Assembly (NCBI GenBank): GCA_013288545.1
Contig: JABDBR010000004.1
Span: 33,834-66,644 of the forward strand
Reading direction: 5' to 3'
Source: Nitrososphaerota archaeon
GTDB lineage: Archaea > Thermoproteota > Nitrososphaeria > Nitrososphaerales > Nitrosopumilaceae
DNA: 32,811 nt
In this document: positions 23,382 to 27,086 of the stretch, piece by piece
Layout of the letters: each line of letters starts with the position of its first letter
Numbering within the stretch: position 1 is the stretch's first letter
The notes under the pieces: generated by a model
What the model saw: the letters and a program-made list of their open reading frames with translations, nothing else
Told to the model about the DNA's origin: nothing
Database searches by the model: none
Position numbers and translations under genes: made by a program

Positions 23382-24536
23382 ATGATCTTTTCACATATTT
23401 CTGACACTCATTTGGGTTTTGTACAGTATCATTCAGAGGAACGTGAAAATGACATATACGCGGCATTTGACCAGGCAATTGACGTATCAATAAAAGACCA
23501 TGTTGATTTTGTCATACATTCTGGGGACATATTTCATGTTCCAAATCCAAGTGGAAAGGCAATTGTTGTTTTGGCAAATGCCCTAAAACGCCTAAAGCAA
23601 AACAATATCGATTCTTTTTTTATTCTCGGCGATCATGACATTAGTAGGATAAGGGCAACACCTGTTCCTTTTGTATACAACAATCTAGAGTTTTCAAAAT
23701 ATATCGGAAATGGAAAACCATTTGTTTACAAGGATGTTTTTATCGCAGGATTTGACAAACGCAGAAAAGCAGAGATCGAATCATTTGAAGAAGATTTCTC
23801 AAGAGTAGATGCAGAAGCCAAGAAACATCAAGGACATAAGATCCTAGTTTTGCACCAAGGAATTACTGAAATCAACAAGTTTGCAGGAGAGATAAATTCA
23901 GTGGATCTCCCAAAGAATTTCACATATTATGCCATGGGTCATCTTCACGAGCAAGAGCTAAAGCATTTTTCGCACTTAGGTGGCCCACTTGCATATCCTG
24001 GGTCAATTGAACTCACATCAAGTGAGGGAATAAAAGAAACGCAAAAGGGGTTTTACCAAGTAGACATTTCAAATCCTGAACCATCCCCAACATGGATAAA
24101 ACTTGACACGCGACCCCAATTTTCTTTCAAGACTTCGATGGACAACATTTCAAGTGAGGTAGATGCAATTTCTGAGAAGATCAAACTACTTGCGAAAAAA
24201 CCTGTAATAGAGCTAAAAATTACAGGTGAAACTATAGAGCCTAGCCTAGTACAAGCACAGATTTCCAAGTTGTCAGACCTTGTGCTACGTTGCTTTTGGA
24301 GACATGTATCCACTGAGCAATCAAGCGGATCTGTCTTCATTGATAGACCATTGAAGATAGAAGATGAGATGTATCGAATTGCAAAAGAGATACTGGGCTC
24401 TACAGACATGGCAAATTTTGCAATAAATGAGCTCTTGCCATTATTATCAAATGGTAGTACTAATGAAGCAAGCCAAGCAGTTGTAGATAATTTTGCAAGA
24501 TTCAAAAAAGGAGTAGAACATGCTGCAATCAGTTGA
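23382..24536 (+). CDS. mre11: Mre11 nuclease, with GDHD in place of GNHD
   Basis: 384 residues from ATG 23382 (a TTG at 23373 would overlap herA by 8 nt). Calcineurin-type phosphoesterase motifs: SHISDTHLGF (D8, H10), HSGDIFH (D49), ILGDHDIS (84-86 region), LHQGITE and YAMGHLHE, followed by a capping domain. With this start the numbering matches Pyrococcus Mre11, whose metal ligand N84 is Asp here; catalytic H85 is retained. Mre11 with Rad50 opens and trims DNA ends for HerA-NurA. The 3' end overlaps rad50 by 17 nt. Confidence 0.95.
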   Translation: MIFSHISDTHLGFVQYHSEERENDIYAAFDQAIDVSIKDHVDFVIHSGDIFHVPNPSGKAIVVLANALKRLKQNNIDSFFILGDHDISRIRATPVPFVYNNLEFSKYIGNGKPFVYKDVFIAGFDKRRKAEIESFEEDFSRVDAEAKKHQGHKILVLHQGITEINKFAGEINSVDLPKNFTYYAMGHLHEQELKHFSHLGGPLAYPGSIELTSSEGIKETQKGFYQVDISNPEPSPTWIKLDTRPQFSFKTSMDNISSEVDAISEKIKLLAKKPVIELKITGETIEPSLVQAQISKLSDLVLRCFWRHVSTEQSSGSVFIDRPLKIEDEMYRIAKEILGSTDMANFAINELLPLLSNGSTNEASQAVVDNFARFKKGVEHAAIS

Positions 24537-26595
24537 GATAGAAAATTTCCTGTCTCATAAAAATACAAAATTAACATTTGACAGAGGGGTAACAGTATTT
24601 GTAGGACAGAATGGTGCCGGAAAATCAAGCATCATAGATGCAATAACATTTGCGTTGTTTGGAGAGCACATAAGAAAATCAACAAAGGGACTTTTGCGCA
24701 GAGGAAGTAACCAGTCATATGCCAAAGTAGAATTTTCCATAGGAAATAGGCAGTTTGAGGCAGTGCGCAAAATAGACTCCAAGGGAACAGTCGGAGCTGT
24801 ATTACACGAAAAGATCAACGGTGAATTAATTCAACTTGCAGCAGGAGAACGAAGGCAGTTTGGAGAATCCATGACAAAGACAATCGAATCCCTCATAGGA
24901 CTAGACTTTGAGAAACTCAAAGTTGCATCCATTGTACAACAAGGCGAACTACAGACAATAATTGAGGCAGATCCCAAAAAATTCAAGGAACTAGTCAATG
25001 CAATGATTGGCATAGACAAGCTTGACATGGCTTTTGAATCAATGAAAAAAACAATTGATGCTTTCAGAGTCACTGTCAAATCTAGATTAGGTTACGATGA
25101 CACCAGTATTGATGCATTACAAAATAAAATTGATACCCTGTTAAAAGAAATCACAACTTTAGAGCCACAAAAAAAGAGGCTCGAGTCAGACAAGTTATCT
25201 CAGGAGCATGAATTTTTTGTGCTACAGCAAAATATCGAATCAGAGATACCAAAGGAACTAAAGATAAAGGAATTAGAAAGCAAAAAAGAAGATCTTCTCA
25301 GATACCTGAGAAACTCCATAGTTTCAATGAAGCGAGAACTAGCAGAAAAAGAGAGAAAGTTTGCAGAATGCACAAACAGTTTGTCCGTTTTATCTCTCAA
25401 GTCACAAGTTGAATCAGACGTAAAACATGCACAGTTAGAAATTGACAGAATCAGTGCAGAATCAAAAAAAATAGTAGAAGAGATGGCAACCATACGAAGC
25501 CAGCAAGATATTGCAAACAGGTTGCACCTAATAGATGGCAAATGTCCTGTCTGCGACTCTACGGTGGACAAGCTCAATCCATTATTTGATGAAAAGTACA
25601 TTACATCAGAACTTGAAACATTAAAGAAAAAAACAGAACTTTTGGCAAAGGATAACATCACGATTCAAAACAAGAAAAAAGAACTTGACATGAAACTACA
25701 ACAAATCATAAAAGCAGAGGGGGTCTTGTCCTTGAACAATATCAAAAGTCCAGATGACTTGACAAAGCTTGAAGATGAGATATCAAAATTGCAGGTAAAT
25801 ACCAAAGACATACCTCTTGAGATAAGCACTGGGAACATGGTGCAATATGCAATTGACGAATATTCCACTGATGTTACAAAATCAATATCTGTTCTAGTTC
25901 AAGAGACCCAAGGTTTTGATGTCAATAATTTTAGAAATCTAAAATCAAAACTGGAACAACAAAGAAGAGTCCTCAGTACACTAGATCAAGACATTGGAGC
26001 AGTAAATACAAAATTAAGTTTACACAAAGACGAGTCTGAGAAAATTTCCCTTGTGCTACTAGAACTACAAGATGTAAAACAGTATGTCTCAAGTCTTGAA
26101 ACAATACGCAGCCAGATTTACAATAGAGACGGACCCGTTGCCACAAGCCTTCGCTCTTGGGCTTTGGGTATGATATCACAAAAGGCTTCAGAGTATCTTT
26201 CAACATTTAATGTAAAAATTCAGAGAATCACACTAGAAGACAAGTCAAGAGATATTGGAATCACATGTTACTCTGGAAATTCAGAGTTGGATCTAGAATC
26301 ATTGAGCGGTGGAGAAAAAGTCAGTGTAGCACTTGCACTACGGCTTGGAATGGCTCATTTCATGGGATCATCAAATTTGAATTTCATCATTCTTGACGAG
26401 CCAACTACTCACTTGGACCAAGAGAGAAGAAAATCTCTGGTAAATGTGCTTACGCAGGCATTTGAGTCAAACATTGATGCAATTTCCCAATTTATCATCA
26501 TCACACATGATTCAGAGATATTTGAAAATTCTAACATTGATGCAATCTATGACTTCAAGTCAACTCCAGAAGGAACTGTAGTTACGCCAATCTAG
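24520..26595 (+). CDS. rad50: Rad50 SMC-like ATPase
   Basis: 691 residues. Walker A GQNGAGKSS (29-37), Q-loop VQQGELQ (about 147), two coiled-coil arms around a zinc hook CPVC (about 341-344, GKCPVCDSTVD), ABC signature LSGGEKVSVALALR and Walker B FIILDEPTTHLD. It tethers and gates DNA ends for Mre11. The arms, about 160-190 residues each, are shorter than in Pyrococcus Rad50 (882 residues in total). It overlaps mre11 by 17 nt and the convergent HEAT gene by 4 nt. Confidence 0.95.
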   Translation: MLQSVEIENFLSHKNTKLTFDRGVTVFVGQNGAGKSSIIDAITFALFGEHIRKSTKGLLRRGSNQSYAKVEFSIGNRQFEAVRKIDSKGTVGAVLHEKINGELIQLAAGERRQFGESMTKTIESLIGLDFEKLKVASIVQQGELQTIIEADPKKFKELVNAMIGIDKLDMAFESMKKTIDAFRVTVKSRLGYDDTSIDALQNKIDTLLKEITTLEPQKKRLESDKLSQEHEFFVLQQNIESEIPKELKIKELESKKEDLLRYLRNSIVSMKRELAEKERKFAECTNSLSVLSLKSQVESDVKHAQLEIDRISAESKKIVEEMATIRSQQDIANRLHLIDGKCPVCDSTVDKLNPLFDEKYITSELETLKKKTELLAKDNITIQNKKKELDMKLQQIIKAEGVLSLNNIKSPDDLTKLEDEISKLQVNTKDIPLEISTGNMVQYAIDEYSTDVTKSISVLVQETQGFDVNNFRNLKSKLEQQRRVLSTLDQDIGAVNTKLSLHKDESEKISLVLLELQDVKQYVSSLETIRSQIYNRDGPVATSLRSWALGMISQKASEYLSTFNVKIQRITLEDKSRDIGITCYSGNSELDLESLSGGEKVSVALALRLGMAHFMGSSNLNFIILDEPTTHLDQERRKSLVNVLTQAFESNIDAISQFIIITHDSEIFENSNIDAIYDFKSTPEGTVVTPI

Positions 26596-27086
26596 CCGCC
26601 AGTCATCTTGGCAAACTTTTCATTCTTGCACAAGCTTTCCATGAATTTTAGGTTTGACAGTGCAACTACTGCAGAATCTCGTACTTGTTCGCTTGAATCT
26701 TCCAAGGCTTTTTGCAATGTCTCTTTGGCATCCTGAGAGCCAATCACCCCTAGTGCAACAGCTGCTTCATGTCTTACAAACAAGCTAGGATCGTTTCTTG
26801 TTGCATCCTCGAGGGGTTTTATGCCACTTCGAAGGCACATCTGTCCAAGCGAGAAGGCAGCCTCATGTCGCACCAATTCATTAGAATCATTTTTGAGCAC
26901 ACTTGCAACATGTGGAACAACATCTTCTCCCCCCATATCTACAAGAATGCAGACTGCTCTACATCTTATTACAAAATCGTTGTCAGTCAGTAGGCCAACA
27001 AAGTATTCCTTGTCTTTTTTTTCATACTTTTCTTCCATTTCGGATAAAAGCTCAAGACGATTTGTTGGAATGACTTCCATGCCCAT
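26592..27086 (-). CDS. HEAT-repeat protein with two His-Glu motifs, resembling half of deoxyhypusine hydroxylase
   Basis: 164 residues: a short charged N-terminus and about four HEAT/PBS-lyase-type repeats. Two consecutive repeats carry His-Glu pairs, H74-E75 in LVRHEAAFSLGQM and H106-E107 in FVRHEAAVALGVIG, 32 residues apart. Eukaryotic deoxyhypusine hydroxylase has four such pairs, two per half and about 33 apart, binding a di-iron centre, and its repeats read similarly (KHELAYCLGQM and VRHEAGEALGAIG as I recall them). A half-size protein could form the site as a dimer. Plain HEAT scaffolds can also show VRHEAA, so this is a hypothesis. CTAAATAT (minus, 27101-27108) favours ATG 27080 over 27086. 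Confidence 0.75.
   Translation of the reverse strand: MGMEVIPTNRLELLSEMEEKYEKKDKEYFVGLLTDNDFVIRCRAVCILVDMGGEDVVPHVASVLKNDSNELVRHEAAFSLGQMCLRSGIKPLEDATRNDPSLFVRHEAAVALGVIGSQDAKETLQKALEDSSEQVRDSAVVALSNLKFMESLCKNEKFAKMTGG

Follow-up and report, generated by a model that had tools for sequence, protein, structure and literature searches.

A candidate half-size deoxyhypusine hydroxylase-like HEAT protein with two conserved His-Glu pairs in Nitrososphaerota

Introduction

The closest described system is deoxyhypusine hydroxylase (DOHH), known from the human structures 4d4z and 4d50, in which each chain comprises two arms, eight HEAT repeats and four His-Glu pairs, the pairs being located in repeats 2 and 3 of each four-repeat arm. 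The conserved pairs of the human enzyme are H56-E57, H89-E90, H207-E208 and H240-E241, with iron anchored by H56, H89, E90, H207, H240 and E241, and the deoxyhypusine side chain bound by E57, E90, E208 and E241 together with two glycines, printed as G65 and G214 (PMC9117371). A likeness of the HEAT repeats of Plasmodium DOHH to those of phycocyanin lyases, and to archaeal COG1413 proteins, has been noted before (PMC3591309). Additionally, a PBS-lyase HEAT family, arCOG02966, occurs in a sponge Nitrosopumilus, according to a report whose accessible portion draws no link to DOHH (PMC6697440).

The archaeal side of this pathway has a gap. Hypusine is reported in Sulfolobus, Pyrodictium and Thermoproteus (PMC5178350), and some anaerobic archaea are described as having only deoxyhypusine (PMC9599864). 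Although some archaea contain hypusine, three papers state that no archaeal DOHH orthologue had been found by 2016 (PMC5178350), 2018 (PMC6105217) and 2021 (PMC8153317), and the latter two mention a bifunctional deoxyhypusine synthase (DHS) as a possible alternative. No published archaeal DOHH was found among the titles and abstract openings listed in our literature search, which extended to sources other than subscription papers and preprints.

The gene and its product

The window, i.e., the whole stretch of 32,811 nucleotides analysed here, spanning G000:C4:33834-66644, carries at 26592..27086 of the minus strand the gene of a half-size DOHH-like HEAT protein of 164 residues with an ATG start (the window protein), defined by its ORF, translation, HEAT_2 match and orthologues; together with the latter it forms what we call family A. 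The first-pass annotation of this DNA had located the ORF correctly and had noted two segments, LVRHEAAFSLGQM and FVRHEAAVALGVIG, both of which are found in the translation, as well as His-Glu pairs spaced 32 residues apart, which are H74-E75 and H106-E107. It had also counted two HEAT repeats, a description that holds for the repeats bearing the pairs and fails for the repeat number, since the model helices and the HEAT_2 match give four repeats after an N-terminal helix. Pfam assigns HEAT_2 (2.7e-19) and HEAT_PBS (6.8e-14) to the protein. The gene is single-copy in the window's genome, an assembly that is ~85% complete, and the nearest named orthologues of its product are those of Candidatus Nitrosotalea.

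An AlphaFold2 model computed from 22 sequences (the window protein and 21 loci) has a mean pLDDT of 93.9 and a pTM of 0.87, and consists of the N-terminal helix followed by the four HEAT repeats, with H74-E75 and H106-E107 close to where the second helix begins in repeat 2 and in repeat 3, respectively. Repeat 1 (residues 26-51, 26934..27011; this and all following features lie on the minus strand) was delimited from the model helices; it is devoid of His-Glu and includes R41, R43 and C46, which are invariant in 66/66 orthologues. Repeats 2 (residues 54-83, 26838..26927) and 3 (residues 86-115, 26742..26831), delimited from model helices and conservation, contain the first and the second pair, respectively. 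The H74-E75 codons (26862..26867) align with human DOHH H56-E57 and H207-E208, and the H106-E107 codons (26766..26771) with H89-E90 and H240-E241; the codons of G81-Q82 (26841..26846) follow the first pair within repeat 2. Repeat 4 (residues 118-154, 26625..26735, from the model) has an invariant S138, and at the pair position the window protein has DS, some members of family A having another letter before the Ser, whereas the two arms of DOHH have ET and ES there. The chain ends in T162-G163-G164 (26595..26603), as delimited in the orthologue alignment.

Conservation of the His-Glu pairs

The family A alignment has 69 rows representing 66 distinct orthologues, with 11 duplicate, fragmentary, remote or paralogous loci left out. 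Conservation of the His-Glu pairs among orthologues had been set beforehand as a test, and the pairs are kept throughout: 41 positions are invariant in 66/66 orthologues, among them H74, E75, H106, E107, G81, Q82, G113 and T162-G163-G164. A profile-based recount over all loci at hand found the two pairs exactly 32 residues apart in 76/78 distinct family A frames. One of the two exceptions, L136, is a frame full of N gaps, and the other, L058, comes from a draft contig containing an N, where a 7-residue tandem duplication widens the spacing to 39. Divergent members (L094-L099) retain both pairs and lack the Thr-Gly-Gly ending, which is present in 71/78 distinct frames and is absent from six divergent ones and from the gapped L136. 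Other long HEAT proteins of the phylum, each with three or more motif matches, served as a control and showed His-Glu in 0/43 repeats from 12 loci; the control is narrow, as these loci reduce to only 8 groups of proteins with 31 different motif strings. The two His-Glu pairs of family A are more than chance.

Three further observations concern individual genes or residues. The conserved C-terminal Thr-Gly-Gly could enter the active site of a partner, or could serve as a processing or attachment tail. The split family A gene of genome G361 was not accepted as a real fission, since one of its two pieces, L136, is flanked by N-filled gaps. In one genome of genus g4, family A is present only as two-frame fragments, one with a stop (L138, G351:C1:3383-3627), which may reflect either gene decay or an error in sequencing.

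Relationship to DOHH and to other HEAT proteins

Family A and DOHH place their His-Glu pairs in the same two repeats of a four-repeat arm, and LGQ[ML] follows the first pair in both. The glycine at H+7 is also shared, G81 of the window protein (H74+7) corresponding to G214 of DOHH (H207+7). The spacing is 32 in family A vs. 33 in DOHH, and family A, known here from sequence and model, is archaeal, half as long and in most members ends in Thr-Gly-Gly. One defining feature of DOHH, two arms in one chain, is absent: the window protein has four repeats and two pairs.

The profile search that the first-pass annotation had called for identified DOHH as the best natural PDB relative of family A (1e-35 with the family profile, in two stretches), with designed HEAT proteins preceding it by E-value. 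DOHH was likewise the best natural match of the window protein as a single sequence (1.9e-19) and of a divergent family A member (3.9e-23), with alphaReps scoring higher in both cases. By fold, the window model matches DOHH chain A with a TMq of 0.73 and 1.7 Å over 131 columns, and chain B with a TMq of 0.72 and 3.6 Å over 138 columns (Foldseek); chain A ranks 29 by E-value, behind designed proteins, and has the top query TM-score among the 50 matches listed. The highest total PDB scores for family A, by sequence and by fold E-value, belong to designed alphaReps, which are consensus HEAT repeats like family A, but artificial. They have no His-Glu in the segments aligned, and their fold matches of similar length are mostly at 4-8 Å rmsd; one designed protein, 6veh, is comparable to DOHH chain A in its fit to the window model (TM 0.70, 1.9 Å over 126 columns; Foldseek).

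The other natural proteins in question, CpcE/CpcF and NblB, have PBS-lyase-type HEAT repeats in common with family A. Membership in the phycobilisome-lyase/NblB group was rejected, the scores being 41.7 bits vs. a cut-off of 300 for NblB, 20.7 vs. 330 for CpcE and 20.5 vs. 220 for CpcF. A best match to phycobilisome lyases with no DOHH signal had been named as an outcome that would count against the DOHH reading; the PDB profile search gave the reverse, 29.6 bits for the lyase vs. 126 for DOHH.

How much of the similarity is specific to DOHH was gauged by masking the His-Glu positions in a comparison of 12 family A sequences, 4 alphaRep segments and partial DOHH arms. Against DOHH arm N, family A had a mean score of 96.8 and the alphaReps 100.5; against arm C, the values were 81.0 and 67.0. 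Since masked family A is no closer to arm N than the alphaReps are, common descent is unproven, and the comparison, tried as proof of orthology, did not supply it. Beyond the pairs, family A approximates the HEAT consensus, so that its link with DOHH derives mainly from the pairs, from where they lie and how far apart, and from the paralogues described below. The DOHH-type reading of the first-pass annotation is upheld in part, with regard to the conserved pairs, the best natural match and the shared one-arm plan; a dimer with converging pairs, metal binding, hydroxylase activity, aIF5A as the substrate and an ancestral position relative to DOHH, as against another HEAT protein with the same residues, are proposals.

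The two DOHH arms score 175 against each other, and 126.8 and 113.0 on average against family A, a greater mutual closeness that would follow from a doubling of DOHH later than any split. A tree with alphaReps as the sole outgroup and one DOHH species is uninformative as to descent; it pairs the two DOHH arms and places them outside families A and B, and under the same outgroup limits a tree computed without the His-Glu columns places B inside the smallest clade containing A.

A paralogous family with the same pairs

Family B (L075-L081, L084-L093, L102, L103, L131, L137) comprises half-size HEAT proteins of ~165 aa with 32-40% identity to the window protein over ~90 residues. Like family A, they have two His-Glu pairs, with a spacing of 32 in 16/16 distinct frames; both pairs are invariant in a 7-sequence alignment, and in one variant the corresponding positions read HHE and RHE. 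They differ from family A in an N-terminal RWD motif, in the absence of the Thr-Gly-Gly ending and, in 6/7 aligned sequences, in having no Gly seven residues after the His (H+7) in the first pair. For family B, human DOHH is the top PDB match overall (2.7e-21 by profile, 9.2e-15 by single sequence), and the profile alignment covers all four DOHH pairs, in both arms. At E 1e-60 or better, 40/121 genomes of the window's family, including two from its genus, have a near full-length match, and the B-profile tally of 107 includes family A genes. In the window's genome (~85% complete), the sole B-profile match is the family A gene itself.

Genomic context and the candidate substrate

The window gene shares 4 bp with the end of a Rad50-like gene that runs towards it (ORF 24520-26595, named by eye). 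Among the loci listed, Rad50 also lies tail-to-tail with family A in L033, L035, L041, L047, L049 and L061, L071-L073 have, by eye, a molybdenum-hydroxylase-like cluster next to it, L066 and L074 have NADH-dehydrogenase-like genes, and the neighbours are different again in further loci. Given that the neighbours change among these loci, the adjacency to Rad50 was rejected as a sign of a role in repair. A separate observation is a conserved protein of ~152 aa with an RYW motif at its start, encoded head-to-head with family A (L063:3087-3545, L064:4283-4792, L065:4409-4945, L041:4502-4960, L047:4503-4961 and L049:4503-4961).

In the portion listed of the surroundings of 28 family A loci, neither DHS nor aIF5A is a conserved neighbour; in the window's genome, a DHS gene is located ~39 kb from the family A gene. 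This genome contains both an IF5A with the target lysine and DHS, the activity of the latter being predicted. Two DHS-family genes score above the Pfam cut-off (L001, G000:C4:20592-21446; L002, G000:C3:3-731), which are alike by eye over their shared part, L002 being cut by the contig end. The complete DHS is closest to 8put (1e-89), a 'Probable deoxyhypusine synthase' that we take to be archaeal. Both genes encode Thr where the eukaryotic-type DHS in the same alignment has a Lys, which is presumably catalytic, and 8put is also devoid of Lys at that position; with Thr in its place, the activity of the window's DHS is not assured. The aIF5A has the loop SKPGKHGAAK, and its match to the Pfam C-terminal domain, at 21.8 bits, falls short of the cut-off (24.2). 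Elsewhere, in L083, an aIF5A gene (1495-1908) adjoins a gene resembling Dph6-type diphthamide synthase (549-1295, named by eye), so that two themes of translation-factor modification are adjacent in this locus.

Distribution and co-occurrence with haem-copper oxidase

Profile searches of genomes were made within the window's phylum, and a survey of 397 of its genomes, counting matches at a profile E-value of 1e-20 or better, found family A in 102: 77/79 genomes of the window's family, 16/17 from other families of the order, 1/2 from the rest of the class and 8/299 other genomes of the phylum. COX1 (haem-copper oxidase) was found in 173/397 genomes, i.e., in 100/102 with family A vs. 73/295 without it. 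The only genomes with A and no COX1 are G484 and G504; G471, a member of the class, has neither, and G071, G170, G092, G098, G110, G116 and G217 are COX1-bearing relatives devoid of A. This co-occurrence fits an O2-dependent enzyme and is confounded by ancestry, with 93/102 genomes belonging to one order. When 14 genomes were rechecked at a looser threshold, A was nearly full-length in G484 and G504 and in pieces in G361 and G351; G461 had a match of B type, and the remaining nine had nothing beyond weak HEAT matches. A search for close relatives in one genome per species found 29 thaumarchaeal-labelled loci and a single bacterial one (L062, 28% identity).

HEAT_2 was matched in 6/14 control genomes at a threshold of 1e-8, with no match at that threshold in Sulfolobus acidocaldarius. 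As hypusine is reported in this species, family A is not the general archaeal hydroxylase. Pyrodictium and Thermoproteus are anaerobic, and family A is not expected in Sulfolobus, Pyrodictium and Thermoproteus, for all of which hypusine is reported.

Proposed function and alternatives

The best-supported reading is that the window protein works like DOHH, its main rivals being a DOHH-type oxygenase with another substrate and a non-catalytic adaptor. With a confidence that comes near to even and stays below it, we propose that it is a half-size DOHH-type di-iron hydroxylase that forms a homodimer and probably acts on deoxyhypusine-aIF5A; the dimer, the iron, the O2 chemistry and the substrate are what we infer from the features described above. 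Several findings speak against this reading: designed alphaReps outscore DOHH, the masked similarity is largely generic, the family A loci listed show no constant linkage to DHS or aIF5A, the co-occurrence with COX1 is confounded by ancestry and has exceptions, hypusine is reported where family A is not expected, with a bifunctional DHS put forward in its stead (PMC6105217), and the window's DHS has Thr at the presumably catalytic position. In such an enzyme, the chain would fold as one four-repeat HEAT arm with the His-Glu pairs near the second-helix starts of repeats 2 and 3. A single arm has two pairs, and thus only a dimer could supply the four pairs of DOHH. Two chains would face each other as the two arms of DOHH do, and the four His and the Glu residues of both would hold two irons. 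The reduced di-iron centre could then bind O2 and hydroxylate an amine-bearing side chain, the likeliest being deoxyhypusine on aIF5A as produced by a DHS from the same genome.

The same conserved residues and fold would equally fit a DOHH-type di-metal oxygenase with half-size subunits that acts on something else, e.g., a different side chain in a protein, or a polyamine. We regard this as rather doubtful: the family A loci listed do lack a genomic link to aIF5A or DHS, and the Thr-Gly-Gly ending, together with a divergent family B bearing the same pairs, suggests more than one substrate, but the genome does contain DHS-family genes and aIF5A, and the retention of the side-chain-binding Glu residues of DOHH and of one of its Gly positions fits the same substrate.

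It is unlikely, somewhat more so than a change of substrate, that the protein is a non-catalytic HEAT adaptor in which the His-Glu pairs are structural, bind metal without chemistry or serve as a metal chaperone. HEAT proteins are mostly adaptors, as is generally known and has also been stated (PMC9040561), and the proximity of family A to designed consensus proteins above all others, the largely generic character of its masked similarity to DOHH and the varying neighbours all suit such a role. Against it, families A and B both keep the exactly spaced pairs, although they otherwise share just 32-40% identity over ~90 residues, the control repeats are devoid of His-Glu, and the NblB and lyase models score far below their cut-offs. 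An A/B heterodimer as the working enzyme where both families occur, by analogy with the two unequal arms of DOHH, is improbable: family B does keep both pairs, picks DOHH first over both arms and has near full-length matches in 40/121 genomes of the window's family, but it mostly lacks the first pair's H+7 Gly, and since in the window's genome the B profile matches nothing but the A gene, A must work there without B, unless the assembly misses it.

Implications

Returning to the DOHH-like reading, it is tentatively possible that family A is a missing archaeal DOHH, at least in ammonia-oxidising archaea and some other lineages of the phylum. It would then be a homodimeric di-iron HEAT enzyme (where B is present, perhaps an A/B one) and would represent the single-arm state before duplication and fusion gave rise to the two-armed eukaryotic DOHH. 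A half-size candidate that has the metal-anchoring residue types and occurs in O2-respiring lineages makes the archaeal DOHH gap testable. If this proposal is true, it would show an O2 enzyme arising on a non-catalytic repeat scaffold and then doubling.
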